This document shows positions 33,995-63,099 of a DNA stretch of 64,000 nt, one piece after another. Each line of letters begins with the position of its first letter. The first letter of the stretch is position 1. The DNA is taken from the NCBI RefSeq assembly GCF_003589925.1, contig NZ_CP032382.1, positions 1,302,001 through 1,366,000 on the forward strand, read 5' to 3'. This DNA is from Chryseolinea soli (lineage in GTDB: Bacteria; Bacteroidota; Bacteroidia; Cytophagales; Cyclobacteriaceae). The notes beneath the pieces were generated by a model, which saw nothing but the letters and a program-made list of their open reading frames with translations, had not been told where the DNA came from and ran no database searches. The translations under genes and the position numbers were made by a program.

Positions 33995-36900
33995 CTAACG
34001 CACGTCGATGCTGGATTGGGGTGTGATGGGCAGGATCAGATAGAAGGTAGCACCCTTGTTCATCTCGCCGCGGGCATAGATGTAGCCCCCGTGGTTCTCC
34101 ACGATCTTCCGGGCAATAGCCAACCCGATGCCCGTGCCTTCAAAGTTCCGGCCGTGCAGACGTTGGAAGATGCCAAAGATCTTTTCGCGGTATTCGTTCT
34201 CGAACCCGATGCCGTTGTCGCTCACTTCCACGCATGCAAATTGATCCGGGGAAACGCCAAACGTATCTGCCTGCTCACGGGTCACCGGCTTTCGTTCCAT
34301 GGTGATGACCGGGGGATGAGGGCCCGAGAATTTCAGCGCGTTGCTGATGAGGTTTTGAAATACCTGCCGCATCTGTCCGGGCACGGCATCGATGTAAGGA
34401 AGATCGCCGATCCGGACCACCGCCTTCTTGTCGCGAATGGAAACTTCGAGGTCGTCGCAGATCTCCTTCACCAGCGCCTTCAAGTCGGTCGACTCTTTCA
34501 CGATGCCATTGTTCGACAGTTTGGAGAGCGTCAGCACGTCGTCGATGAGGTACTGCATGCGATTGGAGGCATTGATCATTTTGTCGAAATAGCCGGCTTC
34601 GCTCTGTGAGAGTTTGTCGTTGATTTTGGATTGCAACAAATTTCCAAACGCCTGGATCTTGCGCAGTGGTTCCTTCAAGTCATGGGAAGCCACCGAAGCA
34701 AATTGCAACAGGTCGAAGTTAGAACGCTCCAGTTGGATGTTGCTTTCCGAGAGCTTTTGAGAGGTGATCTCGAGGTCTTCATAGTTGCGTGCGATGATGT
34801 CGGCATCTTTTTTCCGCTTGGTGATATCGGTGTACGTGGTCACCACACCGTCGAGCATTTTCACAACGGTCGTGTCGTACCATTTGTCGGTTGCCTCCTG
34901 GTAAAATTCCAATCGCGCAGGTACGCCGGTTTCGACGACGTCCACATACATATCGAAATAGGTCTTGTTCCCGTTGAACATGCGCAACAACTTTTGACCT
35001 GCCAAGGCGCCGGGTTTTACATTGAACATTCTCTCTGCCGCTTCGTTCAGCGCCAGGTATTCAAAGTCCACGATCTTTCTTTGCTTGTTGCGAACCGCGC
35101 GCTTGGCGGCAATACCGCTGGTGGAACTTTTGAAGATCCCCTGGACGATACTGTCAAGCCGCTTGATCTGCGAAATGTCGATAAAATTGATCACCACGCC
35201 ATCGATGGTCTTGTCACGCCGCACGTAGGGACTCAGCCGCATGAGATAGAAATGATGATCGGTCGTCTCGATCTCCCGCGTCACCAGCTCGCCGGTGTCG
35301 ATGACCTTCCGGATGTGAGCGACCATGTCAACGCTTGGGATATTGGTCGTGATGTCTACCAGGGAACGGCCGATGTCGGCATCGATAAAATTGACCATCC
35401 GGCGCGAAGACGGGGTGAATTTCCGGATGATCATTTTGCGATCGACCAATATCTGTCCGATGTCGGAGTTGTTGAAATAATTGTTCAGGTCGTCGTTCAA
35501 TTCATACAGTTCCTGGATCTTCGACTGGTGTTCAGCGCTCACCGTGTGCAGCTCTTCATTCAGCGACTGGAGTTCTTCGTTGGTGCTTTGCAACTCTTCG
35601 TTGGTGGAGATCATCTCCTCGTTGTTGGCCTGCATTTCTTCGTTGGCCGTCTCCAATTCTTCGATCACGGCTTGCAGGTTTTCGCGGGTGTCGGTGAGCT
35701 CGCGTTCCAGTTCGGTGATGCGTTCCAGGTCGCCAACCATTCCCGGATCGATGGCTTTCATCACCCGGGGTTCTGTATTGTCTTCCTCCAGGATCACCGA
35801 CAGGAAGGGCTCCTGGAATTCCTTTTGCGTGAGATAGGGCTTCACGATGATATTCACAAAGCGCGGCGACCCTTCGTGATGAACGGCCACGCGCTTCAGC
35901 ACGCTTTTTTCATTCGACGTCATGGCACGGCGCACGATCACACCCAGGGCCACGGCCAGGTCCGGCGCTACCAGTTTTAGTAAATTGAAATTGAAGGTGT
36001 CGTCAGGAAAGTGAAGAAAGGTCTTATAGTTTCCCACGGCTTGCTTCACCTTGAATTCGCGATCGATGACGAGGACCACGATCTTCCGGTCTTCCAGCAG
36101 GGTGTCTTTAAAGATCTCGGCCATGTTGGCCACGGGGTTGCGTGCTGCCGGGGTGGAAATAGGAGGAAACACCGTCTTGTCCAGCGGCACCAACATGGTC
36201 TCGCCATCGGCCAGGGTCGCCTTGGTAGTACACCGGTAGAGTTTCCATTTCCGGCTCACTTCCAGCAGGACTTCCTTCAACGGCCCGATGTTCTCGCTAG
36301 GGCCCAGCATTAAATACCCATCCAGCTTCAGGGCAAAATGAAATTTCTTCAACGCCTTGCGCTGCAACACCGGGTTGATGTAGATGAACATGTTCCGGCA
36401 AAGAACGAGGTCGATGTGGCTGAAGGGGTGATCCTTCAAGATGTCGTGGTTGGCAAACACCACATGCTTGCGCAGCTCGGGCGAGACGCGATAGGATTTT
36501 CCCTCCTCGATAAAATATTTCTTCAACAACGAAGGCGGCACGTCGCGCGTAATGCTCTCGCCATATACGCCACGCGACGCGGTTTCCAGCGCATCGGCGT
36601 CGATGTCGGTAGCGAATATTTTCAGGTTGGAAAACAGCATCCCGGTTTTCTCCATACACTCGCGAAACAGCAACGCCACCGAGTAGGCTTCCTCACCACT
36701 GCTACAGGCGGCTACCCAAACTTTTATGGGATCCTCCGGCGACTTCTTCGAAAGAATGTTGGGGATGGCTTGCGTGCGCAAACATTCGAATGCCTCGCCA
36801 TCGCGAAAAAATTTCGTGACGTTGATCAGGAACTCACGCCCGAGGATTTTTAACTCGTCGTCATTCTCCCGGATATACTGGCGATAGGAGCCCAGGTCAG

Positions 36901-37681
36901 CCACACCCACTTCCGACATGCGTTTGGCCAGGCGACGGAGCAGCGTGGGGCGCTTGTATTGATTGAAGTCGTGTTTGGTGCTCTTGTGGAGCAGGTCCAG
37001 CAATTCGCGTAAACTCTTTTCGTCTTGCCGGTTCATGCTGTGGAAAGATTGCATGAGTGGCTCATCTTTGATGAACTCCAGCATTTCTTCCCCGATCATT
37101 TCAGGAGGGAGGATCAAGTCCACATAACCGGTGGCGATGGCACTGTTAGGCATGCCGTCGAAAGCGGCGGTGAGCGGGTCTTGCACGATCACTATTCCCC
37201 CATGACGTTTGATGGCCTCGATGCCTTTTGATCCGTCTGTGCCGGTGCCCGAAAGCACGATGCCCACAGCCCGCTCGCCCAGGTCTTCGGCCAGGGAAGT
37301 AAAAAAGATATCCACGGCGTTGTTCGGACCGCCTTTCTTTAGTTTCTCTGCCAGGCGAAGCTTTTGGTCGTGGACGGTCATTATTTTCTTGGCAGGGATG
37401 ACATAGATGCAATCCGGTTCGATCTCGCCACCGTCCTCAGCCTCGCGCACACGCATGGCGGTATGCTTCGACAATAGTTCGGCCATCAGGCTTTTATAGT
37501 CGGGCGATAGATGTTGTACCACCACATAAGAAAAGCCTGTATTGGCAGGCAAGTAATCGAACAGGTCATGCAGCGCCTCCATGCCGCCGGCGGAGGCGCC
37601 AATGCCGACAATTTTAGGGTCCGGATGTTTTGTTTCCGGGCCCTCCATCATTTTAGCCATATCGGGAGAAGAATTACTCAA
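33995..37681 (-). CDS. CheB-CheR-PAS-histidine kinase fusion
   Basis: A 1228-residue cytoplasmic signalling protein. The CheB methylesterase domain (about residues 20-200) has its triad in IGASAGG, VVQHLSP and GTGTDGSKG. CheR methyltransferase (about 225-480) has [21 protein letters not shown] and [10 protein letters not shown] glutamate/asparagine-rich coiled-coil (about 640-720) leads to PAS domains. HisKA has its acceptor His in [15 protein letters not shown], and the HATPase has [14 protein letters not shown] and [12 protein letters not shown]. No receptor or receiver is attached. The divergent single-domain response regulator starts about 60 bp away and is its probable phosphate acceptor. 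No chemoreceptor is in the window. Confidence 0.95.
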
Positions 37682-48995: not shown

Positions 48996-51900
48996 ATGCG
49001 TTACGTTTCCGGCATTTTATATTTAGCGGCTACCGATCTCTCCAACTACCTCGGCTGCAAACACCTGTCGCAACTCGATCGCGCCGTCGCCAACAAGGAT
49101 TTGGCAAAGCCCGATTGGTTCGACCCTGCTTTGGCCGTGTTGGCCAAACGTGGCGAGCAACATGAAGCGGCCTACGTGGAACACCTGCGCCAAAAGGGAC
49201 TCACCCTCGTTGACCTGAAAAACAAACCGACGGAAGAAACCGTGAAGGCGATGGCCGCGGGTGTGGATGTGATCACGCAAGCGACACTATCGGAAGGCGT
49301 CTGGACCGGTAATGCCGATATTCTTTTAAAAATTCCCGGCACCAGCCGGTTTGGCGACTGGTCGTATGAGGTGCAGGACACCAAGCTCTCTCAAAACACC
49401 CGCGCCGCCACCATCCTGCAACTGTGTCTCTATACGGACTTGCTAGAGCGGTTGCAGGGTCACACACCGTGGAAAATGTATGTGGTGAAACCCGGAGATG
49501 ATTTCCCTACCGACGAATTTTTGTTTACCGACTTCCGGGCCTACTATGCGTTGATCCGTAAAAATTTTGAAACGGTCATGCTCGGCCCCGCATTAAACAT
49601 CTATCCCGATCCCGTAGCGCACTGCGCCATTTGTCGCTGGTGGAAACACTGCGACACCCGCCGCCACGACGACGATCACCTGTCGCTTATCGCCGGCATC
49701 CGCACCGCCCACCGCCAGGAGTTGCAGCATCAACAGATCGACACCCTGGAACAATTTGCACAATTGACTCTACCCCTTCCCGAAAAACCAAAGCGCGGAA
49801 ACGCCGAGGCGTATGTTTCGTTGCACGATCAAGCGCGCATTCAATGGGAAGGACGCGTACAAGACAAACTCCTTTACAAAACACTGGCACCCGAGCCGGG
49901 CCGGGGCTTCTTTCGTCTGCCCGAACCCGACAAAGGCGATGTATATTTTGACATTGAAGGCGATCCCTTCTTCGGCAGCGGCGGCCTGGAATATTTGTTG
50001 GGCTATGCCTTCCAGGACGACACCGGAACGTTGACCTACCGCGCACATTGGGCGATGGACGTTGTGACCGAGAAGAAGATCTTTGAACAATTCATCGACG
50101 TGATCATGGATCGCTGGCGGCGCTATCCCAACTTCTATGTCTATCACTATGGCATTTACGAACCCGGCGCCATGAAACGCCTGGCCAACCGCCACAGCAC
50201 ACGTGCCGACGAAGTAGACCAATTGCTGCGGGCAGAACGGTTTATCGATCTCCACATGGTGATCCGCGAGAGCCTCAAAGCCAGCGTGGAGCACTATTCT
50301 CTGAAAGACCTGGAAAAATTCACAATCTATCAACGCCAGATCGAACTACCCACCGCCGGTGCTTGCCGCCGCGCATTGGAACGCGCTCTGGAACTCAACG
50401 AAGTGCCCTCGCTTTCAAACGACATCCGGGAAGTGGTGGAGCGCTACAACGAAGACGACTGCCGTGCCACGCAAGCCCTGCACCTGTGGCTCGAAGCACG
50501 ACGAAGCGAATTGATTGCTTCCGGCATTTCCATCGTCCGTCCCGAATCAAAGACGGGCGAGGCCAGCGATAATGTGCGCGACATCCAGACACGGGCGCTG
50601 GCACTTTTCAAAGGCCTAACGGCCAAGCTACCGGAAGACCGCGAAACCTGGACGGACATACACAAAGGGAAATGGCTGCTGGCCCACCTGATCGACTACT
50701 TCCGGCGCGAAGACAAAAGCGCGTGGTGGGATTATTTCCGCGTGCACGAAATGGACCGCGAGGCCTTGCTGGAAGAGCGAAAAGGCCTTGCAGGGTTGGA
50801 GTATATCGGCCCCGTGATCACACCCGCTAAAACCAAGGTGCCCGTGCACCGCTACAGCTATCCCCCGCAAGAGGTGAGCATGGATGAGGACGACGAGTTG
50901 CATGAAGTGAAGGGCGCCAAGATCGGCAGCGTGTATGCCATCCATTTGAGCCGTTACACCATCGACATCAAGAAGACCGCGAAGACTGCCGACCGGCACC
51001 CGCAAGCCGTGCACGTGATGGAACGCATCGACCCCGGCGCGCTCGTCACCTCCATTATGGACCTGGCCAACGACATCATCGAAGACGGTCTCGACAACGA
51101 CTGGCCGCATCGCGCCGCCAAACACCTGCTGTTAAAGAAAAAGCCACGACTGTTAACGCCCATCGACGGACCGCTGCTCTCGCCACAAGAAGATCCGGGG
51201 CAAGGGGCCATACGACTGGCGTTGCAATTAGATAAAAGTGTGCTTGCCATCCAGGGACCCCCGGGCACCGGCAAAACCCACACCGGCGCCGACATGATCC
51301 TGGCCCTCGTGCGCGCCGGAAAAAAAGTCGGGGTCACGGCCGTGGGACACAAGGTGATCCGCAACTTGCTGGAGAAAGTATTGGAACATGCTGCAAAGCA
51401 AAATCTCTCCGTGAGCTGCGTTCACAAAGTGACGGACAAAAGCGAAACCCCTACGGCGGGCATCACCGAGGTAACAAAAACGGAAGAAGCTATTCAAGCC
51501 TTAGGCCAGGGAAAAATTGTCGGTGGAACGGCATGGCTATGGGCCGACAAGAAAGCTGCCGGCACATTGGATTATTTATTTGTGGACGAAGCCGGGCAGA
51601 TGTCACTCAGCCAGGTGTTGGCCGCAACGCCCTCGGCACATAATCTTATTCTGCTTGGCGATCCGCAGCAATTGGAACAACCCCAACGCGGCGCCCACCC
51701 TGAAGGCAGCGACGTGGCCGCGCTCACCTACCTGCTGGATGGCCACCAAACCATTCCCGACGACCGCGGTATTTTTCTGGGCATCACACGACGCCTGCAT
51801 CCCAACCTGTGCACCTTCACCTCCGAACTCTTTTACGAGAGTCGCTTGAAATCGCTCCCCGGGTTGGAGAACCAACAGATCCATGGTCCCGTACCGTTCA

Positions 51901-52394
51901 CGGGTGGCGGACTGTATTATGTCCCCGTCGAGCATGAAGGCTGTCAAAGCCGGTCGGACGAAGAGATCGCAGTCATCACGAACATCGTGGAAACATTAAC
52001 GAGTCGTGGCGCGACCTGGACCGATGCAGAAGGTGTGGTGTCGCCGCTTACGAAAAATGATATTCTTATCGTCGCGCCTTACAACGCGCAGGTTAGCGGG
52101 CTGCGTGAAAAATTACCCGATGTGAGAACGGGTACGGTCGACAAGTTCCAGGGGCAGCAGGCGCCCGTGGTGATCTATTCCATGACCGCGTCGTCGACGG
52201 AAGATGCGCCGCGGGGGATGAGCTTTCTTTACAATCCCAATCGCCTCAATGTGGCGACCAGTCGCGCGAAGTGCATTTGCATTTTGGTGGCCTCCCCCCG
52301 GTTGCTGGAACCTGAATGTCATACCATCGACCAGATGAAATGGGCCAATGCGTTGTGCCGGTTTGGGGAGATGGCCACGCGGGTGGAGTTGTAG
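48996..52394 (+). CDS. Nuclease-helicase: Cas4/AddB-like nuclease, DEDD exonuclease and SF1 helicase in one chain (TM0106-type)
   Basis: A 1132-residue DNA-processing protein. The N-terminal PD-(D/E)xK-like nuclease (about residues 1-220) has GNADILLKI, YEVQDTKLS and LQLCLYTDLL. It carries an iron-sulfur staple: Cys21 plus C-x2-C-x5-C (Cys210, Cys213, Cys219), the spacing seen in AddB and Cas4. An RNase H-like DEDD domain (about 310-500) has YFDIEGDP and RYNEDDCRATQ. The SF1 helicase (about 720-1120) has Walker A GPPGTGKTH (Lys760), Walker B LFVDEAGQMS, GDPQQLEQPQRG and FQGQQAPVVIYSM. It fits the TM0106-type RecB-like family linked to repair or defence. No partner gene overlaps it. Confidence 0.9.
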   Translation: MRYVSGILYLAATDLSNYLGCKHLSQLDRAVANKDLAKPDWFDPALAVLAKRGEQHEAAYVEHLRQKGLTLVDLKNKPTEETVKAMAAGVDVITQATLSEGVWTGNADILLKIPGTSRFGDWSYEVQDTKLSQNTRAATILQLCLYTDLLERLQGHTPWKMYVVKPGDDFPTDEFLFTDFRAYYALIRKNFETVMLGPALNIYPDPVAHCAICRWWKHCDTRRHDDDHLSLIAGIRTAHRQELQHQQIDTLEQFAQLTLPLPEKPKRGNAEAYVSLHDQARIQWEGRVQDKLLYKTLAPEPGRGFFRLPEPDKGDVYFDIEGDPFFGSGGLEYLLGYAFQDDTGTLTYRAHWAMDVVTEKKIFEQFIDVIMDRWRRYPNFYVYHYGIYEPGAMKRLANRHSTRADEVDQLLRAERFIDLHMVIRESLKASVEHYSLKDLEKFTIYQRQIELPTAGACRRALERALELNEVPSLSNDIREVVERYNEDDCRATQALHLWLEARRSELIASGISIVRPESKTGEASDNVRDIQTRALALFKGLTAKLPEDRETWTDIHKGKWLLAHLIDYFRREDKSAWWDYFRVHEMDREALLEERKGLAGLEYIGPVITPAKTKVPVHRYSYPPQEVSMDEDDELHEVKGAKIGSVYAIHLSRYTIDIKKTAKTADRHPQAVHVMERIDPGALVTSIMDLANDIIEDGLDNDWPHRAAKHLLLKKKPRLLTPIDGPLLSPQEDPGQGAIRLALQLDKSVLAIQGPPGTGKTHTGADMILALVRAGKKVGVTAVGHKVIRNLLEKVLEHAAKQNLSVSCVHKVTDKSETPTAGITEVTKTEEAIQALGQGKIVGGTAWLWADKKAAGTLDYLFVDEAGQMSLSQVLAATPSAHNLILLGDPQQLEQPQRGAHPEGSDVAALTYLLDGHQTIPDDRGIFLGITRRLHPNLCTFTSELFYESRLKSLPGLENQQIHGPVPFTGGGLYYVPVEHEGCQSRSDEEIAVITNIVETLTSRGATWTDAEGVVSPLTKNDILIVAPYNAQVSGLREKLPDVRTGTVDKFQGQQAPVVIYSMTASSTEDAPRGMSFLYNPNRLNVATSRAKCICILVASPRLLEPECHTIDQMKWANALCRFGEMATRVEL

Positions 52395-52454: not shown

Positions 52455-53555
52455 ATGGGCCTCTGGGATAAACTTAAAAATGAACTCATCGACATCATTG
52501 AGTGGAAAGACGACACCAACAACACGATGGTGTGGCGTTTTCCGCGCTACCAGGATGAAATCAAGAATGGAGCACAGCTCACCGTGCGCGAGAGCCAGGT
52601 GGCGGTGTTTGTAAACGAAGGCCAGATCGCCGATGTGTTCAAGCCCGGCCGATACGAGCTCACCACCCAAAACATGCCCATCCTGACCACGCTGCGCGGA
52701 TGGAAATATGGCTTCAACAGCCCGTTCAAGGTGGACATCTTCTTTGTGAACACGAAGAACTTTACCGACAACAAGTGGGGCACCAAAAACCCCATCATGT
52801 TGCGCGACGCCGAGTTCGGCCCCATCCGCCTGCGGGCTTTTGGCTCGTTTGCCATCAAGGTGACCGACGCCGGAAAATTCATCAAAGAGATCGCCGGCAC
52901 GCAGGCCCACTTCACCACCGACGAGGTGACGGAGCAACTGCGCAACCTGGTGGTGACACGCTTTTCGGATGCCATCGGCGAAAGCAAAATACCCGTGCTG
53001 GATCTGGCCGCGAACTATGATGAACTTTCGAAATTCATCAGCGGCAAGATCAATCCCGAGTTTGGCGAATACGGTTTGGAAGTGACCAAGTTCCTGGTGG
53101 AAAACATTTCGCTTCCCACGGAAGTGGAACAAGCCCTGGACAAACGGAGCAGCATGGGCATCTTGGGCAACCTCAACCAATACGCTCAGTTTCAAGCCGC
53201 CAATGCCATGGAAGCCGCTGCCAAAAATCCCGGTGGCGATGCCGGCGCAGGCATCGGCATGGGCATGGGCTTTGCCATGGCCCAACAAATGGGACAAGCT
53301 TTCAACGCGCAAAATCAACAATCGCCGCAAGGTCCCCCACCCCTTCCGGGTAGCGTTCAATATTTTGTGGCCGTCAATGGCCAGCAGCAAGGCCCGTTCA
53401 ACCTCGCCGCCCTGCAACAAATGACCCAGCAAGGCTCACTAACCCGCGAGACCCTGGTGTGGAAGCAAGGCATGGCCGGCTGGACAAAAGCAAGCGACGC
53501 TCCCGACTTAGGAAGTCTGTTTGGCGCAATTCCCCCGCCGCTACCCCCTCAATAA
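52455..53555 (+). CDS. SPFH-domain protein with C-terminal GYF_2 (DUF4339) domain, YdjI-like
   Basis: A 366-residue protein. The N-terminal SPFH/virion-core-like domain (about residues 40-245) has RESQVAVFVNEGQIADVFKPGRYEL and FGSFAIKVTDAGKFI, as in Bacillus YdjI. A Gly/Ala/Gln-rich linker (about 250-305) leads to a GYF_2 domain (YFVAVNGQQQGPFNLAALQQM, WKQGMAGWTKASD). The YdjGHI set works with PspA on membrane damage in Bacillus; the role here is inferred. It is followed 92 bp later by a zinc-ribbon membrane protein, which is its probable partner. Confidence 0.9.
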   Translation: MGLWDKLKNELIDIIEWKDDTNNTMVWRFPRYQDEIKNGAQLTVRESQVAVFVNEGQIADVFKPGRYELTTQNMPILTTLRGWKYGFNSPFKVDIFFVNTKNFTDNKWGTKNPIMLRDAEFGPIRLRAFGSFAIKVTDAGKFIKEIAGTQAHFTTDEVTEQLRNLVVTRFSDAIGESKIPVLDLAANYDELSKFISGKINPEFGEYGLEVTKFLVENISLPTEVEQALDKRSSMGILGNLNQYAQFQAANAMEAAAKNPGGDAGAGIGMGMGFAMAQQMGQAFNAQNQQSPQGPPPLPGSVQYFVAVNGQQQGPFNLAALQQMTQQGSLTRETLVWKQGMAGWTKASDAPDLGSLFGAIPPPLPPQ

Positions 53556-53647
53556 ATAAAAAATATAGTCTCATCCGTTTCCCTGGCGTCCTGTTGGATG
53601 ACGCCTTGGAGGGCTGAAAATGCGATCACAAAAAATGAGTCTTTTCC

Positions 53648-54769
53648 ATGAGTGATTTTACGGAAGCCACCAAGGCAGTAAGCAACGAGTTGGCCTGTTC
53701 AGGGTGCGGTGCCATTTTGAAATTCAAGCCGGGGACACTCAACCTGGTCTGCGAATATTGCGGGGCACAAAACCCCATCACACAACCGGATGTAAAAAAT
53801 GAAATCGAGGAGATCGGTCTCGACGATTTCCTTGCCCGCAATTTCAACAACGAAGAAAAGATCGAAGTGGCCACCGTGAAATGCGAAAGCTGTGGGGCCA
53901 CGTCCACCCTGGACCCGAGGATCAGTTCGGATAAATGTCCGTTTTGCGCGGCCACGCTGGTCGTGAAAAGCGGTACCACTTCCACGCTACACAAGCCACA
54001 GTATGTGCTGCCGTTCGGGATCGACATCCAGAAGGCGTCTGCCAATTTCAAAAGCTGGATGAACCGGTTGTGGTTTGCACCCAATGATTTGAAAAAGTAT
54101 GCCGACAGTGCCGATAAACTCAACGGCATGTATCTTCCCTTCTGGACCTTCGACTGCAATACGTCCTCCAGCTATACCGGCCAGCGCGGCGAAGATTATT
54201 ATGTGAACGAATCCTATACCACCACCGAAAACGGGAAGACCGTGACCCGAACACGGCAGGTAATCAAGACGCGATGGTATCCTGCGTCGGGTAACGTGAG
54301 CAACAGCTTCGACGACCTGCTGATCGAAGCCACCCGATCGCTCAACAAAGGCAAGCTTCGGGCGCTCGAGCCTTGGGATCTGAAAAACCTGCTCGCCTAC
54401 AACGACAAATTTCTTAGTGGTTTTCGCACCGAAACCTATGCGGTCGATGTGAAGCAGGGTTACACGGAAGCCAAGCAACGGATGGAGCCCGAAATACGCT
54501 CCACCATTTGCCGCGACATTGGTGGCGACCGGCAGATGATCCATTACGTGAACACCACCTATCGCAATCCAACCTTTAAACACATTTTGTTGCCGGTGTG
54601 GATCAGTGCCTATCGTTACAATAACAAAGTATACCAATTCCTGGTGAATGCCCGGACCGGCGAGGTGCAAGGGGAGCGTCCGTATAGCGCCGTGAAAATT
54701 GCGTTGGCTGTGATCGGTGGGTTGTTGCTGGCCATCGTTCTTTATAGTCTATTTGGCAAATCACAATAA
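53648..54769 (+). CDS. Zinc-ribbon membrane protein, YdjG-like
   Basis: A 373-residue protein with two N-terminal zinc ribbons: CSGCGAILKF with LVCEYCGAQN (about residues 17-40), and VKCESCGATS with DKCPFCAAT. The middle is an uncharacterised domain (FDCNTSSSYTGQRGEDYYV, NTTYRNPTFKHILLPVWISAYRYNNK). A C-terminal TM (about residues 347-367, LAVIGGLLLAIVLYSLF) anchors it. In Bacillus, YdjG also joins zinc ribbons and membrane helices beside YdjI. With the SPFH gene upstream, it probably forms an envelope-stress module. Confidence 0.85.
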   Translation: MSDFTEATKAVSNELACSGCGAILKFKPGTLNLVCEYCGAQNPITQPDVKNEIEEIGLDDFLARNFNNEEKIEVATVKCESCGATSTLDPRISSDKCPFCAATLVVKSGTTSTLHKPQYVLPFGIDIQKASANFKSWMNRLWFAPNDLKKYADSADKLNGMYLPFWTFDCNTSSSYTGQRGEDYYVNESYTTTENGKTVTRTRQVIKTRWYPASGNVSNSFDDLLIEATRSLNKGKLRALEPWDLKNLLAYNDKFLSGFRTETYAVDVKQGYTEAKQRMEPEIRSTICRDIGGDRQMIHYVNTTYRNPTFKHILLPVWISAYRYNNKVYQFLVNARTGEVQGERPYSAVKIALAVIGGLLLAIVLYSLFGKSQ

Positions 54770-55724: not shown

Positions 55725-56882
55725 TCATCGCTTTGTAATCATCTCCTCCTTCGCAGCCCACAGGCCAATGTCCTGCTTGCTGAGCGCAGCCGCCATGAGG
55801 TCGGGAAACTTATCGGGCGTGCAGGCAAATACCGGGATGCCGAGAGTGGCCATGTAGGTGGCATTTTGGTGATCATAGCCCGGCGCACCATCGTCGTTCA
55901 ACGCCAGCAAGACAATGACTTGCACACCGGCCTCGGTTAACGCCTTGGCGCGCTTGCGCATCTCTTCGGGATTTCCCCCTTCATATAAATCGGTGATCAG
56001 CACCAGTACCGTATCCGTTGGTCGCTGAATGATCTGCTGACAATACGTGAGCGCGCGATTGATATCCGTGCCTCCACCCAGCTGAACGCCAAAAAGAAGT
56101 TCCACCGGGTCGGTAAGTTCTTCGGTGAGGTCGGCCACGTTCGTATCGAACACGACCATTTTGGTTTGGATGGCCGGGATAGACGCCATCACCGCGCCGA
56201 AGATGCCGGAGTAGATCACCGACGTACCCATACTGCCGCTCTGATCCAAACAAAGCACCACATCCTTCAACGAACGCCGGCGTTTGCCATAGCCGATGCG
56301 CACCTCGGGAACAATAGTTTTATAATCGGGTTGATAATGTTTTAAGTTCTTGAGAATGGTAGCGTGCCAGTTGATCTCGTTGTGACGCGGCCGCCGGTTG
56401 CGTGTGGACCGGTTCAGACTGCCCGCTACCGCTTGCTGCATGGGTTGTGCCAGCTTCTTCATGAGCTCCTCCACCACTTTGCGCACGACCTGTCGCGCCG
56501 TGTCTTTGGTCTTGGATGGAATGACACGACTCAGGGTCATCAGTGTGGCGACGAGGTGAACATCGGCTTCTACGTTCTCCAGCATTTCTTTTTCGAGCAG
56601 CATCGATGTGAGGTCGAGTCGCTTCAGGGCATCTTGTTGCATCACCTTCACCACCGTGTTGGGAAAGTAGGTGCGAATGTCACCCAGCCAGCGGCTCACG
56701 TTTGGCGAAGAAGCGCCCAGGCCACCTTTCTTTTCGGCGTCGTATAAAGCTTCCAATGTTTTGTCGATCTGGAGGTCGATGTTCTGTAAAGAATAATCGG
56801 TGCCGTCATTCTGACCGCCGCCCAAGATCATGCGCCATTTGCGCAAGTGTTGTTGTTCTTCGTTCGAGTTGAGTTCGCTCAT
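55725..56882 (-). CDS. VWA-domain protein (YehP-like)
   Basis: A 385-residue protein. The N-terminal half is helical. The von Willebrand A domain (about residues 205-365) has a complete MIDAS: CLDQSGSMG (Asp213, Ser215, Ser217), the Thr of GGGTDINRAL and the Asp of LVLITDLYEGG. It overlaps the DUF5682 gene by 4 bp (ATGA), so it is coupled to it. VWA proteins beside MoxR ATPases serve as adaptors or metal-dependent assembly partners. It resembles YehP of Escherichia coli, which sits beside yehL, yehM and yehQ. Last gene of the operon. Confidence 0.92.
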   Translation of the reverse strand: MSELNSNEEQQHLRKWRMILGGGQNDGTDYSLQNIDLQIDKTLEALYDAEKKGGLGASSPNVSRWLGDIRTYFPNTVVKVMQQDALKRLDLTSMLLEKEMLENVEADVHLVATLMTLSRVIPSKTKDTARQVVRKVVEELMKKLAQPMQQAVAGSLNRSTRNRRPRHNEINWHATILKNLKHYQPDYKTIVPEVRIGYGKRRRSLKDVVLCLDQSGSMGTSVIYSGIFGAVMASIPAIQTKMVVFDTNVADLTEELTDPVELLFGVQLGGGTDINRALTYCQQIIQRPTDTVLVLITDLYEGGNPEEMRKRAKALTEAGVQVIVLLALNDDGAPGYDHQNATYMATLGIPVFACTPDKFPDLMAAALSKQDIGLWAAKEEMITKR

Positions 56883-59191
56883 ACGATGTTCGCTTCAGGC
56901 GTGATGGGTGTTGGCGCACCCGGTTTATTTTTCAATCCCAAAAGTTGCATCACCACCGGCAACGATGCGATGCCGCGTTCGTGATCGACCGCGTCCTCAC
57001 CTGATGCATTTGCCGTCACATGCCCGCTGCCGGGTCGTTTGGCCTTCTCTCCGATCTTTCGTCGTTCGGCGTGTGTGAATTGGGAAAAGGTTCGTCGCAG
57101 GAGGGGAAGGAGCGCAATAAAATCCTCTTCGCGAATGCCCCGCACCCAGTCGTTCACTAGGGTCCAGAGCCGTTCGTCCAGCAACAGGATCGTGCCACTG
57201 CCTTTCAAAAATCCTTCCATCCAAGATGCTGCAACGGATGGGGTACCGGCCAATGTCAAGGCAAAATGAAAGCGGTCGGCCAGCACATTTCCCTCCATCA
57301 CTTTTGCATCGGCCAGCAGCCGGGTGCTGTAGCCGGCGACGAGCGGTGCGGTGTTGACGTTGTCGCAAATGACTCTTAGGGTTTCATGCCACTCCTCGCG
57401 TTGCTCGGCTTGGTTCAGGAGGGCGATCGATTCACTGAGTTGATAGAGATGTTCCGTTATCTTTTGCGCGGCGTCGTCATCCACGGCGACACACGCGGGC
57501 GGGAGACTTACACAGATGCGGGCGATCATGGAGTTCACGATGCCGAGGAGCATGGTCTCGTCCGTCTGGCGAACGTTGCCATAGCGCGACACCGACACCA
57601 GCGAGGGCAGCACTTCTAATAATTGCATCACATCGCCCGTGGCGGCCGCCAGGTTGTTGATGCTATTGATCAGAGTCTCTGCTGCTTCGGGTAAATCGGA
57701 AGGGATCACTTTTGCCAACAGGTCACACACCTGCCCCAGGCTGGTGGCCTCTTGTGCTTCGTGGGCAACGTAGTGGATCACGGCCTCTTCCAGGGTGTTG
57801 CCCCAGCTGCCTTTTTCTATTATTAATATAGAATACTCCGGTTCCCAACGCAGTTGCCACTGCTCCTTGAAAGTTCCTTTGCCCCGTACGTGGGCTAGAT
57901 GACCCCACGTCACGCCCAACAATTGGAGGCGGTGTAAAAATATGCTTCGTTCCAGGTGAAGTTCTTCGCGCAGGTCGAGCAGCAGATCTTTGTTGCCGGC
58001 TTCGGCGGGCAGGCGCAGTTTTTTCTGCGTCCGTTCCACATCCTGCAACAAGGGCGGCTTGGGGATCTCGGCCGGCACGGCGCCGATGGTGTCACTCACG
58101 ATCAGCGCGTCGCGGATCAGCTCCAACAAAATGTCGTCGCCGTTGCAAAGTACCGCCAGCGTGGCTTCGTTCAACTCCGCCAACCCCGACTTGCTGATGC
58201 CCCGCAGCGACGACAACGCTTCGGCCAAGCGGACGGCCTCGATGATGTGCGCTACCGAAGTATCCATCTCGTGATTTCGAAACACTTGCGCCACTTTTGC
58301 CATCCACTGCACGCCGTTGTCGAGCGGATAGTGCCAAAGGTGGCTATACCATCCTGGCGAGTTGATGCCGGCGCCATAGCCGCTGGCGTAGGTGAGGCGA
58401 TTATAGGTCCACGGGATCCACGTCGTTTCCACTTTCACTTTGGCAAGACCCTTGAGCAGATCGGCATCTTCTTTTGCTTTGGGCATGTCGGTCAACGCCG
58501 GGGCATGCCAGGCACCACAAATCACGACGATGTTTGCAAAACCATCTTTCTCCGCCTGGCGGATCATCTTGCGCATGTGCGCCTCGCGAAGTTTCTCGAC
58601 GACCTCTTTCTTTTCCGGAAGTTCGGAACGCAGGGCGCGCATGGCTTCGTGGACCGCTTCGAAAGTGCCTTGGTGATCCATGCGTTGCTCGAACATATAC
58701 TCCCACCAACGCTCACCGTCATCGAACCCCGCGGCCACCGCCAGGTATTTTAATGGATCACGATATTCCTCTATGCTCGCTTCGGCATTCGAAAGGGCGG
58801 CACTGGTGATGCCGTCATCCTCTTTTTCATCGGTTTCTTTTTTCTCCGTTTCTTTTTTATCCTCGTCTTTATCCAGGGCAAAGCGATGCGACAACGGCAA
58901 GTCCATAAATCGAACGGGCACATTTTGTCTGGCGCCATATTGAATGGCCTGCCACTCGGGACTGAATTCTGCAAAAGGATAGAAGACGGCGCGCTGGGGT
59001 TTGTCGGGACGATAAGCCAGGATGGCCACCGGCGGTTTCAGTTCGCTGTGGGCTGCCCATCGCAGAAGTTCGTCGCCCTCGGGCGGACCCTCCACGAGAA
59101 CGATGTCCGGTCGCGACTGTTCCAGGAATGCTTTCACATTCCGCGCCGATCCCGGGCCATGATGCCGTATGCCGAGTACGTGGATGCTCAT
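56879..59191 (-). CDS. DUF5682 family protein (YehM-like)
   Basis: A 770-residue protein starting at the ATG at 59191, which overlaps the MoxR stop by 4 bp. The N-terminal domain has IRHHGPGSARNV (His10, His11), VLVEGPPEGDELL (Glu34, Glu38) and VVICGAWHAPAL (His229). These resemble the His/Glu pockets of the ChaN/TraB/erythromycin-esterase-like group; the similarity is my inference. An acidic-lysine linker (about residues 107-130) and a long alpha-helical C-terminal half follow. It has no signal peptide. In Escherichia coli YehM occupies the same place. Function unknown. Confidence 0.88.
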   Translation of the reverse strand: MSIHVLGIRHHGPGSARNVKAFLEQSRPDIVLVEGPPEGDELLRWAAHSELKPPVAILAYRPDKPQRAVFYPFAEFSPEWQAIQYGARQNVPVRFMDLPLSHRFALDKDEDKKETEKKETDEKEDDGITSAALSNAEASIEEYRDPLKYLAVAAGFDDGERWWEYMFEQRMDHQGTFEAVHEAMRALRSELPEKKEVVEKLREAHMRKMIRQAEKDGFANIVVICGAWHAPALTDMPKAKEDADLLKGLAKVKVETTWIPWTYNRLTYASGYGAGINSPGWYSHLWHYPLDNGVQWMAKVAQVFRNHEMDTSVAHIIEAVRLAEALSSLRGISKSGLAELNEATLAVLCNGDDILLELIRDALIVSDTIGAVPAEIPKPPLLQDVERTQKKLRLPAEAGNKDLLLDLREELHLERSIFLHRLQLLGVTWGHLAHVRGKGTFKEQWQLRWEPEYSILIIEKGSWGNTLEEAVIHYVAHEAQEATSLGQVCDLLAKVIPSDLPEAAETLINSINNLAAATGDVMQLLEVLPSLVSVSRYGNVRQTDETMLLGIVNSMIARICVSLPPACVAVDDDAAQKITEHLYQLSESIALLNQAEQREEWHETLRVICDNVNTAPLVAGYSTRLLADAKVMEGNVLADRFHFALTLAGTPSVAASWMEGFLKGSGTILLLDERLWTLVNDWVRGIREEDFIALLPLLRRTFSQFTHAERRKIGEKAKRPGSGHVTANASGEDAVDHERGIASLPVVMQLLGLKNKPGAPTPITPEANIV

Positions 59192-60270
59192 ATGCCCTGG
59201 TCGCGGCAGGCTCTGTAAATATCTTTCCACTCGTCGCGGGGCTTCACCACCGTTTCGAGATATTCCTGCCAGATGATCCGGTCTTGCACCGGGTCTTTCA
59301 CCACCGCGCCGATGATGCCCGCGGCAAGGTCGGCCGCTTTCAGCGAGCCGTCGCCGAAGTAGGTGGCCATGGCCACGCCGCTGTTCACCACCGAAATGGC
59401 TTCGGCCGTGCTCAAGGTACCGGAGGGTGTTTTGATTTTTGTCTTACCATCCAACGATACGCCTGAGCGCAATTCCCGGAAAATGGTAACGATGCGTTTT
59501 ATCTCTGCTACGGCGGGTGGCTCTGCCGGCAGATCCATCGCCTTCTCAAAACTTTGCACGCGCCGGCGCACGATGTCGATCTCTTCTTCGATGCTGTCGG
59601 GCAGCGGGAGGATGACGGTGTTGAACCTGCGCTTCAGGGCACCCGACAATTCGTTCACACCTTTGTCGCGGTTGTTGGCAGTAGCGATCACATTGAATCC
59701 CTTCACCGCCTGCACTTCCGTGTTCAACTCTGGGACGGGCAATGTTTTTTCCGACAAAATGGTGATGAGCGTGTCCTGCACATCCGACCCGATGCGCGTG
59801 AGCTCTTCGATGCGGGCGATCTTGCCGTCTTGCATGGCCTTCATCACGGGCGTTTCCACCAGTGCTTTTTTAGAGGGGCCATCCGCCAACAACAGCGCAT
59901 AGTTCCATCCATAGCGCACCGCCTCTTCGCTGGTGCCGGCCGTTCCCTGGATCACCATCGTAGAGTCGCCAGAGATTGCCGCCGACAGATGCTCCGACAC
60001 CCACGACTTGGCCGTGCCCGGCAAACCGTACAGCAACAAGGCCCGGTCCGTGGTGAGCGTCGCCACGGCGATCTCCATCAATCTTTTGTTGCCGATATAT
60101 TTTGGCGACACCTCGAATCCGTTCTTCAACTTGCCACCAAGCAAGTAGGTCACCACCGATTGGGGTGAGAGCTTCCAGTTGGGCGGTTTGCGATCGGAAT
60201 CGTTCTTGGCGAGGGCTTCGAGTTCTTCGGCAAATTGGTGCTCGGCGTGTTGGCGTAAGATGCTGCTCAT
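59188..60270 (-). CDS. MoxR-family AAA+ ATPase (YehL-like)
   Basis: A 360-residue AAA+ ATPase. The Walker A motif is YGLPGTAKSW (Lys88) and a Walker B-like acidic pair lies in KIARIEELTRI. The sensor-1 region is FNVIATANNRDKG, with arginine-finger candidates in GALKRRFNTVIL. MoxR ATPases act as chaperones that, with VWA proteins, assemble or modify target complexes. The sequence context fits the YehL subfamily. The stop overlaps the DUF5682 start by 4 bp, and the gene lies 28 bp after the DUF5691 gene. Confidence 0.93.
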   Translation of the reverse strand: MSSILRQHAEHQFAEELEALAKNDSDRKPPNWKLSPQSVVTYLLGGKLKNGFEVSPKYIGNKRLMEIAVATLTTDRALLLYGLPGTAKSWVSEHLSAAISGDSTMVIQGTAGTSEEAVRYGWNYALLLADGPSKKALVETPVMKAMQDGKIARIEELTRIGSDVQDTLITILSEKTLPVPELNTEVQAVKGFNVIATANNRDKGVNELSGALKRRFNTVILPLPDSIEEEIDIVRRRVQSFEKAMDLPAEPPAVAEIKRIVTIFRELRSGVSLDGKTKIKTPSGTLSTAEAISVVNSGVAMATYFGDGSLKAADLAAGIIGAVVKDPVQDRIIWQEYLETVVKPRDEWKDIYRACRDQGI

Positions 60271-60298
60271 ATTTTTTTTGGGTAAATGGCTTTTTGTT

Positions 60299-61792
60299 TT
60301 AACTGGAGAACGATTGGAGAATTTGTTGCTTCAACGTCAACACCCCCGATAGTTCATTCGACTGGTTTCGCCAGTAGGCTTTCTTCTGTTCTTCCGAAGG
60401 CATAAAGGATTCAAGATCCTTTAGCATCGCAACGGGAATATTTTTGACGGCGGCGCGATAAAATGTCTTGTTGTAGGCATACACTTCCTGGGAGGTGTAG
60501 CTGAGCACGGCTTTGGCCAGGTCATTGCTCCACTCATCGTCGAAGCCGGAGAGCATATTGATCAATTCCTGGGGTCTTTGTTTTATGAACCGCAAGGCAT
60601 AGCGATCGCGGTCCTTTGCCGGCAGCGATTCGATAAGCGACACCAAAGCACTTTCCAATATTTCGGCGTCGCCATGGTCCATCAACGCCTGGGTCCAGGT
60701 GGTATCGCGAAATTTTACGGCCGCTATGGCTATTGCCGGAACATAGAGGGCGGTCTTTTTTTCTTTTTGAAACAGTTTTATGATCGCTTCCGGTGTTTCC
60801 TTCAAATGATCGTTCCAAAACGACGGAGGCACGGATGCGATCAACTGGATGAGAATGTACTGCGCATCGCTCACGTTCTTGTCGCTGCTCAGCTTTTCGA
60901 TACCGCTTTTAAAGATCTCCTCGGGGAAGGCAATCTTTTCATTTACTTCGATCGTCGTTTTGGCCAACATGCCCAATAACGCTTTCGAATTTTTCACGTT
61001 CACGGCTTCTTTTAGGATCGTCTTGTAGCCTTGTACCGGTTGTGACGTGGGGATACGTTTTATGAGGTCCAGTATGGCGTTGTTCACCTTCGTTCCTTTC
61101 TCCTTCAACCCTTCCAACCAGGCGAGGTCGTGTTCCGACGGGCCCGTGTTCAAAATTTCCAGGAAGGAAACTTTTTCATTGGCACCTTCGGCGTTCCACG
61201 AGCTTTGCAGCAGTTCAAGGGCGGCGGCAGGTTGTTGCATACGAAGCGACTTGAGCAGTTCCTTCCGCTCTTCTGCCCGGCCGGTCTGCCACACCGTTTG
61301 AATGTCTGCTTCCGGCGCCGAGAAATTCCATTGCGGGTTTAAACGACCCAGCCATTCACCCCTTTTTCCACACACCGACTGGATGAGGGACCGCAGTTCT
61401 TTTTTTTGAATGCTGATGTCGAGTAAAGCCGGCGCCCATTCCGGTTCAGCGCATTTATGGGCGCGGTCACATTGCGTAAGCCAAAGTTTTAGCAGGGCGT
61501 AGTGTTCTTCAGAAAGGATCGTTCGCAACACCGTGGTGGAATCCGTGTGACAATACGGTTTTATCTCCGCTTCCGCTGCCGACAAGACCGCCGACCGGAG
61601 ATCGAGGGGAACACAACCGGACTGCCGGTATTGATACACCAAACTCCCAAAACGAAGAAAATCCTCTTCGGCATCCGGCGTATCGCTCACGTCGACTTGT
61701 TCTGTAATGGCCGCCGGCAGATCGTTTGCGCGAAGGGGCAGCTTGGTGGTGCCCAGCATGGCGTTGTTCACTATGGTTTCCCAGGCCTTCAT
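60299..61792 (-). CDS. DUF5691 family protein
   Basis: A 497-residue helical protein with the ATG at 61792, which overlaps the SWIM gene's stop by 4 bp. The N-terminus (MKAWETIVNNAMLGTTK) and HEAT-like helices (EILNTGPSEHDLAWLEGLKEKG, SVCGKRGEWLGRLNPQW) suggest a scaffold or adaptor. It has no catalytic motif. Members occur beside SWIM, MoxR and VWA genes; a physical complex is plausible but not shown. Confidence 0.88.
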   Translation of the reverse strand: MKAWETIVNNAMLGTTKLPLRANDLPAAITEQVDVSDTPDAEEDFLRFGSLVYQYRQSGCVPLDLRSAVLSAAEAEIKPYCHTDSTTVLRTILSEEHYALLKLWLTQCDRAHKCAEPEWAPALLDISIQKKELRSLIQSVCGKRGEWLGRLNPQWNFSAPEADIQTVWQTGRAEERKELLKSLRMQQPAAALELLQSSWNAEGANEKVSFLEILNTGPSEHDLAWLEGLKEKGTKVNNAILDLIKRIPTSQPVQGYKTILKEAVNVKNSKALLGMLAKTTIEVNEKIAFPEEIFKSGIEKLSSDKNVSDAQYILIQLIASVPPSFWNDHLKETPEAIIKLFQKEKKTALYVPAIAIAAVKFRDTTWTQALMDHGDAEILESALVSLIESLPAKDRDRYALRFIKQRPQELINMLSGFDDEWSNDLAKAVLSYTSQEVYAYNKTFYRAAVKNIPVAMLKDLESFMPSEEQKKAYWRNQSNELSGVLTLKQQILQSFSS

Positions 61793-63099
61793 GCAAAAAA
61801 TGTGTAACGGTTGTTTACCCAAACCCCGAGCGGTTCAAAATCCTGGTGCTTGCCCATGGCAAACATTTTCAACGGCGCGCCGCCACTCAAGGCCATCAGT
61901 TGCCAACCTTGCTGGAACGTAGCCGGGATAAAAACACCGTTGCCTTCTTCGTCTTTCAACATCCATCGATCGCCATCCTTGAAAGGGATCACGTTTTCAA
62001 CTACCACCGGCACGCTATCCAGCAGTGGATTCACACGAAGTATTTCGGAGGCCACTTGCTCCACGGCATTCCAGTTCTTGAGGCCATCGATGGAGTTATT
62101 CGGTTGGCCGCTATAATATTGTTTGATCAGGGCGCGCAAAGGATAGGCGCCTTTAAAAAAACTCACTTCGGCATCGATCCACGATCCGGCCATGAGGTTC
62201 ATTTCGGGAAATTGTCCTTTGGCGTAAAACTGGAGGATCAGCGCATAGCGTCGCGATGAACGTCCGAACAGCCAGTTGCGCTCCACGGTGATCGCGTCTT
62301 CGCGCGTCGTGCGCTTGGCCAGCACAAACCATTCATCGCGCAGGCCGGCTTCGGCGCGCACGTCGTCCAGACTTTGGGTGAACCCTACCTGGGTTCGCAG
62401 TTCCACTTGCAACGCGGGCGACAAGGTTTCGAGGCGGGGAAATCCCTCAAGCACGAGATAGATGCGCAGGAGTTGGTCGAGGAATGCGGTTTGCCATCCG
62501 TCCTGAAAAAAATTGATGTCGCGCAGCGTGCGCACCATCGCCGCCAGTCCGGGGGCTTGTGCGTCGACCATGCGTCGCGTCATGGTTTCGAAGTAGGCCG
62601 GATCTTTGCCAGGGATGGAAACCAGTCCGTTGCGCACAATGTCTTTGATCCATAGCCGTAGTTCGCCCATGCCTTCTTCCACGCGCTTTGTGCGCGTCTC
62701 CTGGCGTTTGGCCTGCGCGGCGGGATCGGCTTTCTTTTCTTTTTCTTTTTTTTCGGATTTCTGCTCTTCCCGCTCGTTGCGCTTATCAAGCCAGGCGGTG
62801 ACCCAATCGGGTTCTGTCGCGGCCTTGAATAATTTCTTGTCGCGTGCATAGAGCAATAGCAACCCCAGTCCATGTTTGCAGGGAAACTTTCGGCTGGGAC
62901 AAGAACATTTAAATGCAATGTTCACCAGGTCGATCTGGGTTTGATAGGGAAGCTTGCCGCTCCCCTGGCACTCGCCCCACAACGCGCGGTCACTCTCTTC
63001 GCGCTTGCCCCACTTCGACGGATTGGCTAATTCCTTTCCCGACTTCTTGGAGGCGTCGTCGGGAGCCATGGACAGGATTTGATCTTCGGAAAAATGCAT
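61789..63099 (-). CDS. SWIM zinc-finger protein (YehQ-like)
   Basis: A 436-residue protein with a SWIM zinc finger near the N-terminus: FKCSCPSRKFPCKHGLGL, in which Cys65, Cys67, Cys74 and His76 make the C-x-C-x(n)-C-x-H ligand set. A lysine/glutamate-rich segment (about residues 118-135) follows, then a long helical domain (GELRLWIKDIVRNGLVSIPG, VRTLRDINFFQDGWQTAFLD). SWIM domains bind DNA or proteins. It is the first gene of the five-gene operon and resembles YehQ. It overlaps the DUF5691 gene by 4 bp. Confidence 0.92.
   Translation of the reverse strand: MHFSEDQILSMAPDDASKKSGKELANPSKWGKREESDRALWGECQGSGKLPYQTQIDLVNIAFKCSCPSRKFPCKHGLGLLLLYARDKKLFKAATEPDWVTAWLDKRNEREEQKSEKKEKEKKADPAAQAKRQETRTKRVEEGMGELRLWIKDIVRNGLVSIPGKDPAYFETMTRRMVDAQAPGLAAMVRTLRDINFFQDGWQTAFLDQLLRIYLVLEGFPRLETLSPALQVELRTQVGFTQSLDDVRAEAGLRDEWFVLAKRTTREDAITVERNWLFGRSSRRYALILQFYAKGQFPEMNLMAGSWIDAEVSFFKGAYPLRALIKQYYSGQPNNSIDGLKNWNAVEQVASEILRVNPLLDSVPVVVENVIPFKDGDRWMLKDEEGNGVFIPATFQQGWQLMALSGGAPLKMFAMGKHQDFEPLGVWVNNRYTFFA

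Follow-up and report, generated by a model that had tools for sequence, protein, structure and literature searches.

A conserved five-gene bacterial set that links a YehL-like MoxR ATPase to a DUF5682 protein resembling TIKI-superfamily hydrolases

The minus strand of a 64,000-nucleotide stretch of Chryseolinea soli DNA (contig NZ_CP032382.1, positions 1,302,001 to 1,366,000; hereafter, the window) carries five genes at 55725-63099, all of which were confirmed in the list of open reading frames (ORFs), in the order SWIM-DUF5691-MoxR-DUF5682-VWA. We found that this gene set is a real unit, with an order that is conserved across phyla and with three members, DUF5682, DUF5691, and SWIM, that are co-inherited even where they are unlinked. 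Taken with the predicted folds and the conservation of key residues, this suggests a single, old protein machine of bacteria, in which a known type of motor would act beside a hydrolase-like domain.

Conservation of the gene set and its order

Genome contigs were scanned with a 12-row DUF5682 alignment, and the loci analyzed were the best 80 of 580 confirmed, which lean to close relatives. Enough flank (more than 4.5 kb before and more than 1.5 kb after DUF5682) was available at 64 of the 80 loci, and at 56 of these 64 all five genes were present in one order and on one strand, with three (L059, L070, and L080) exempted from the coordinate test because the SWIM and DUF5691 matches there fall on the same ORF or overlap in one. 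The remaining eight comprised two loci without SWIM, one without both SWIM and DUF5691, one with DUF5682 and VWA only, and four with DUF5682 alone. By record titles, the 80 loci came from Bacteroidota, Cyanobacteria, Chloroflexi, Thermomicrobia, Planctomycetota, Verrucomicrobia, Acidobacteriota, Melainabacteria, and Proteobacteria, and because the order recurs across phyla, the grouping of the five genes exceeds chance. In two Planctomycetota, the SWIM and DUF5691 profiles hit one and the same ORF (977 or 994 residues). At L085 (7832-9849) and L082 (8780-13213), the set is interrupted by other unidentified ORFs, which separate MoxR from DUF5682 or DUF5682 from VWA.

A first-pass annotation, made from the letters of this DNA, had proposed that the five genes belong together, and the comparison of gene order across genomes that it called for bears this out, as does the co-inheritance described below; the lack of shared occurrence across lineages that would have counted against the proposal was not seen. 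Its view that DUF5691 is an addition in this particular genome is reversed by the same comparison: DUF5691 is normally present at the loci seen, and Escherichia coli is the exception.

Co-inheritance of unlinked genes

Across 296 Bacteroidota genomes (that of C. soli included), DUF5682 was present in seven and DUF5691 in eight at E <= 0.001, including all seven DUF5682 carriers, with six matches over the cut-off. The DUF5691 match in G237 fell below the cut-off (23.6 bits) but adjoins the MoxR and DUF5682 genes of that genome, and the DUF5682 non-carrier with a weak DUF5691 match was G091. In G114 and G253, DUF5682 and DUF5691 were located on different contigs. The phylum of a cyanobacterial carrier was sampled as 146 genomes centered on G375, itself a carrier, and here DUF5682 and DUF5691 (both over the cut-off) and SWIM (E below 1e-70) occurred in the identical eight genomes; weak matches (E 6e-5 to 1e-3), which were not counted, were found in one further genome for DUF5682, seven for DUF5691, and two for SWIM. 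On the 5.0-Mb contig of G380, DUF5682 lies at 4.30 Mb, DUF5691 at 2.57 Mb, and SWIM at 0.39 Mb; in G444 (4.9 Mb), the positions are 0.73, 3.88, and 3.16 Mb, respectively, such that the three genes are at least 0.7 Mb apart in these scattered carriers.

Hypergeometric values for the eight-genome co-occurrence were about 2e-13 with kinship ignored; G380 and G444 are probably kin, sharing the same SWIM change, so that the events are fewer than the genomes. Where DUF5682 was not seen beside DUF5691 (eight genomes), six hold DUF5691 elsewhere and two do not, and in L040 and L061, which are near a locus or contig end, the genes may be nearer than seen. Despite kinship, the retention and loss of unlinked genes together is hard to explain otherwise than by a joint function.

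The MoxR-VWA pair

The MoxR protein matched AAA_5 over the cut-off, retained its Walker A motif, aligned with E. coli YehL, and has the VWA gene two genes on. From its sequence, we place it with the YehL subfamily and predict ATP (adenosine triphosphate) hydrolysis and a hexamer. In the CoxE-like VWA protein, D213, S215, S217, T272, and D298, assigned by the pattern of the metal-ion-dependent adhesion site (MIDAS), were each conserved in 95% or more of the 74 rows. The YehL type is a named MoxR subfamily (PMC3893208). Together with VWA partners, MoxR rings act on other proteins by remodeling them; NorQD drives metal insertion in this way (PMC13036017).

The DUF5682 protein

The N-terminus of DUF5682 (its first 240 residues) looks like a TIKI-superfamily (TraB/GumN) hydrolase domain, based on its model and on a signature of GxxH, a Glu at +24, and a second GxxH, with a His-to-Glu spacing of 24 that is the same as in TraB. 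The best structural match of the model by Z was to TraB-family chains (Z 9.7), and Foldseek backing for a TIKI-like fold was weak. Among readable rows, H10 and H11 were each conserved in 87 of 88, E34 in 88 of 88, and H229 in 89 of 89. These counts draw on 89 rows (81 hits, the window, and seven more, none dropped), whereas an earlier motif count of 69/69 was biased because near-duplicates and three loci without a GxRHH-like motif (L037, L052, and L090) had been excluded from the underlying alignments A2 and A5 (69 and 68 rows). The GIRHH motif reads GIRRH in L090 (5289-7592) and GIRHL in L052 (9932-12358), and the L090 protein would have to rely on the second His.

The 88 DUF5682 rows lack the Glu of an Ere-type 2His/2Glu site: at the second position ahead of the first His they have Ile (81) or Val (7), and the TraB alignment has an invariant Thr there. 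PF01963 (TraB_PrgY_gumN) was not among the Pfam matches of DUF5682 at E <= 0.01, and the protein is therefore at most a fold relative of that family, not a member of it. Searches of PDB sequences with the DUF5682 and SWIM profiles returned nothing meaningful. Because the domain begins at residue 2, there is no room for a signal peptide. ChaN-like members of the TIKI superfamily bind heme.

The SWIM and DUF5691 proteins

The CxC...CxH ligands of the SWIM finger (C65, C67, C74, and H76) were conserved in all 63 readable rows; the L062 row, cut by a contig end, has no readable finger in this recount. Mostly OB-fold rows (RPA70, HIN-200, and telomere proteins) made up the fold list for residues 241-431. 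The SWIM protein of G380, G444, and G496 was found over its C-terminal 300 residues only, and this region may therefore be more important than the finger. Such versions, from genomes with scattered genes, are at L126 6248-7207, L127 7041-8000, and L128 10005-10961. For DUF5691, the profile matched the alphaREP bGFP-A at E 0.004 and the alphaREP iE5 at E 0.087, and the protein is probably made of helical repeats.

Operon layout and neighboring genes

Both the packing of the operon, with ATGA overlaps at three of four junctions and a 28-bp gap at the fourth, and the intact core motifs (Walker A GLPGTAKS, MIDAS DQSGS, the SWIM ligands, and the DUF5682 His and Glu residues) were as the first-pass annotation had read them (Table 1). 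The ATG codons of DUF5691 (61792) and DUF5682 (59191) are internal to longer TTG/GTG ORFs. Judged from the packing, the five genes are likely made together; predicted sigma-70 promoters (3 versus 5.1 in shuffles) and terminators (12 versus 12.4) showed no excess over shuffled sequence. The C. soli genome, one contig of 8.24 Mb, has a single DUF5682 copy, and a profile search of it gave no DUF4132 match.

Table 1. Features of the five-gene set in the window (aa, amino acids; pLDDT, predicted local distance difference test; pTM, predicted template modeling score).
Feature	Coordinates	Strand	Details
SWIM zinc-finger protein, first gene of the operon	61789..63099	-	436 aa; PF04434 SWIM 22.9 bits vs cut-off 19.6; model pLDDT 92.3
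SWIM finger	62848..62910	-	residues 64-84; C65, C67, C74, H76
Part resembling tandem OB folds (fold hint only)	61807..62364	-	SWIM protein residues 246-431
ATGA overlap SWIM/DUF5691	61789..61792	-	read in sequence
DUF5691 protein, probable helical repeats	60299..61792	-	497 aa; PF18944 315.5 bits, over cut-off
28-bp gap DUF5691/MoxR	60271..60298	-	read in sequence
MoxR-type AAA+ ATPase, YehL-like	59188..60270	-	360 aa; AAA_5 126.3 bits, over cut-off; 40% identity to E. coli YehL
ATGA overlap MoxR/DUF5682	59188..59191	-	read in sequence
DUF5682 protein	56879..59191	-	770 aa; PF18934 934.2 bits, over cut-off; model pLDDT 89.7, pTM 0.81
DUF5682 N-terminal TIKI/TraB-like domain	58406..59191	-	residues about 1-262; H10, E34, H229
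DUF5682 C-terminal helical solenoid	57032..58066	-	residues about 376-720
ATGA overlap DUF5682/VWA	56879..56882	-	read in sequence
VWA (CoxE-like) protein, MIDAS intact	55725..56882	-	385 aa; PF05762 VWA_CoxE 169.9 bits vs cut-off 26.4; 34% identity to E. coli YehP

Past the 3′ end of the operon, on the plus strand (window 52455-54769), are an SPFH/Band_7_1 and GYF protein and then a protein with weak zinc-ribbon matches. Elsewhere in the window are a protein of 1132 residues in which an RNase_H_2 domain precedes an AAA_11/AAA_12 helicase (48996-52394) and a 1228-residue CheB-CheR-PAS-histidine kinase fusion (33995-37681). We also surveyed the nearest ORF on each side of the set at loci L013 to L084 (120 ORFs), for which 25 of 140 Pfam families are shown; DUF4132 was the top family among them (9/120).

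Proposed function and alternatives

Our preferred reading, held tentatively and at a little under an even chance, is that the five proteins form one ATP-driven processing machine, probably cytosolic, in which MoxR and VWA remodel a client that DUF5682 cleaves or matures. The MoxR ring would be the motor and the CoxE-like VWA protein its co-chaperone, remodeling a specific client or DUF5682 itself, while the TIKI/TraB-type hydrolase domain (His10, Glu34, and His229), mounted on its helical solenoid, would cleave or mature the client. Recognition of the client would fall to the SWIM protein and the solenoids, with DUF5691 (helical repeats) and SWIM supplying the scaffold and client-recognition parts, and some members add a DUF4132-HEAT protein. 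Past gene linkage and fold we infer every step, namely the physical complex, its location in the cell, catalysis, and the client. Possible but rather doubtful is a further reading, a new kind of bacterial ATP-dependent proteolytic machine: a MoxR/VWA motor would work in trans on DUF5682 as a TIKI-fold protease, supplying it with substrate or switching it on, alongside a SWIM/OB-like client receptor and helical-repeat scaffolds. Complex assembly or protein quality control, as suggested in the first-pass annotation, is in keeping with a MoxR-VWA pair and is strengthened by the hydrolase-like fold of DUF5682; the conflict system that it also offered fares poorly, as set out below. The present findings connect the YehL type with a constant group of partners and with a hydrolase-like domain, in which three specific residues can be mutated. 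The processing machine, if true, would be a new kind of energy-driven protein processing among bacteria.

The leading alternative retains the motor and casts DUF5682 as the holder of a metal or cofactor: a metallocofactor insertion machine like NorQD/CoxDE, with the motor acting on VWA to insert metal and the TIKI-like domain binding metal or cofactor rather than cutting protein. We consider this unlikely, although it draws on the CoxE-like VWA protein (169.9 bits), on metal insertion driven by NorQD (PMC13036017), on the possible involvement of DUF4132, the sixth gene, in molybdopterin biosynthesis (PMC8533742), on the inclusion of yehM in a list of genes that E. coli mutates under copper (PMC12409786), and on MoaA, which was over the cut-off in 23 of 26 DUF5682 genomes, a count without a baseline to compare. 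Against it, MoaA has no match in G237 and only a weak one (43 bits) in G100, both genomes being listed as 100% complete, and no metalloenzyme family recurs among the flank Pfam families shown (SufE appears twice). Molybdenum-cofactor maturation as a general role was rejected, being unlikely given two carriers listed complete without MoaA over the cut-off; in G373, MoaA is just below it. Improbable, in our assessment, is a nucleic-acid-linked stress machine, in which the SWIM protein would bind DNA or RNA via OB-like folds and the motor and hydrolase would process bound proteins; it is consistent with the OB-fold rows that fill most of the fold list for SWIM residues 241-431 and with the rise of drA0166, a gene with DUF4132, on DdrO depletion in Deinococcus (PMC8533742).

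A conflict or phage defense system of the MoxR-vWA kind is very improbable. Ternary systems of this kind exist (PMC7159879), the set is patchy (5/78, 7/296, and 8/146 genomes), Pseudomonadota need five changes on the DUF5682 tree, and single PADLOC restriction-type hits (IIG, IV, II, SspE, Orf5, and HEC-06) occurred among the 120 flank ORFs, again without a baseline. However, the VWA ORFs are 373-424 residues long in 71 of 73 hits and so carry no added effector part, the five proteins drew three weak PADLOC hits (best, 15.6 bits) that do not place them in a known anti-phage system, and matches were found in 1 of 50,697 phage records and 36 of 72,556 plasmid records. A defense island was likewise rejected: of 34 PADLOC families in the flank ORFs, the 25 shown have one member each and none recurs. 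The DUF5682 tree (78 rows, 43 of them Bacteroidota) goes largely by phylum, with 12 label changes against a minimum of 8 and a shuffle average of 33.4, five of them in Pseudomonadota alone, and with Bacteroidota as one clade (support 100). By this tree, the distribution agrees with an old, inherited set that was lost many times and in some cases transferred. The phage record, MT835988.1 (10644-12758; DUF5682 relative, 27% identity), is a 14-kb unannotated Bacteriophage sp. sequence from human feces and may be bacterial DNA.

Comparison with known systems

Like NorQ-NorD and CoxD-CoxE, the window set joins a MoxR AAA+ protein to a VWA partner, here in the CoxE Pfam family; unlike them, it adds three conserved proteins and a TIKI-like domain, and no metalloenzyme recurs among the flank families shown. 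With TraB/PrgY/GumN and TIKI proteins, DUF5682 shares the GxxH, the Glu at +24, a conserved Arg, and the second GxxH, with a putative match in fold, but its domain is joined to a solenoid within one protein and goes with an AAA+ motor, and the Pfam TraB model is silent. MoxR-vWA-VMAP ternary conflict systems (PMC7159879) also combine MoxR, vWA, and a further conserved protein; in contrast, Pfam reports no VMAP or effector domain in the five proteins (no VMAP model was run by itself), and a bpMoxR match (23 bits) was below the cut-off of 27.

Full-text searches for DUF5682, DUF5691, and their Pfam accessions, with most subscription papers outside their scope, returned no paper, and yehM and yehQ had passing mentions. 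Within the literature searched, the motor type is known; neither the TIKI-like assignment nor the five-gene unit, which the first-pass annotation had put forward as a candidate undescribed system, is described there. In one sublineage of E. coli ST131 (sequence type 131), a resistance transposon sits in the metG/DUF4132/yeh region (PMC9334617), which thus seems dispensable there.

The closest parallel that we compared by gene is E. coli yehL-yehM-yehP-yehQ, which by sequence is a divergent cousin. It too forms a one-strand run, with identities of 40% for MoxR, 34% for VWA, and about 24% for DUF5682, and has a DUF4132 gene (yehI) upstream. Its order, MoxR-DUF5682-VWA-SWIM, is unlike that of the window, and DUF5691 had no match in the E. 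coli control genome; YehQ as a SWIM-DUF5691 fusion was rejected, with no match. Of the E. coli equivalents named in the first-pass annotation, YehL, YehP, and the DUF5682 relative do align, whereas YehQ is alike to the window SWIM protein only over the SWIM finger. With this cousin held by E. coli K-12, the idea of a processing machine is directly testable.
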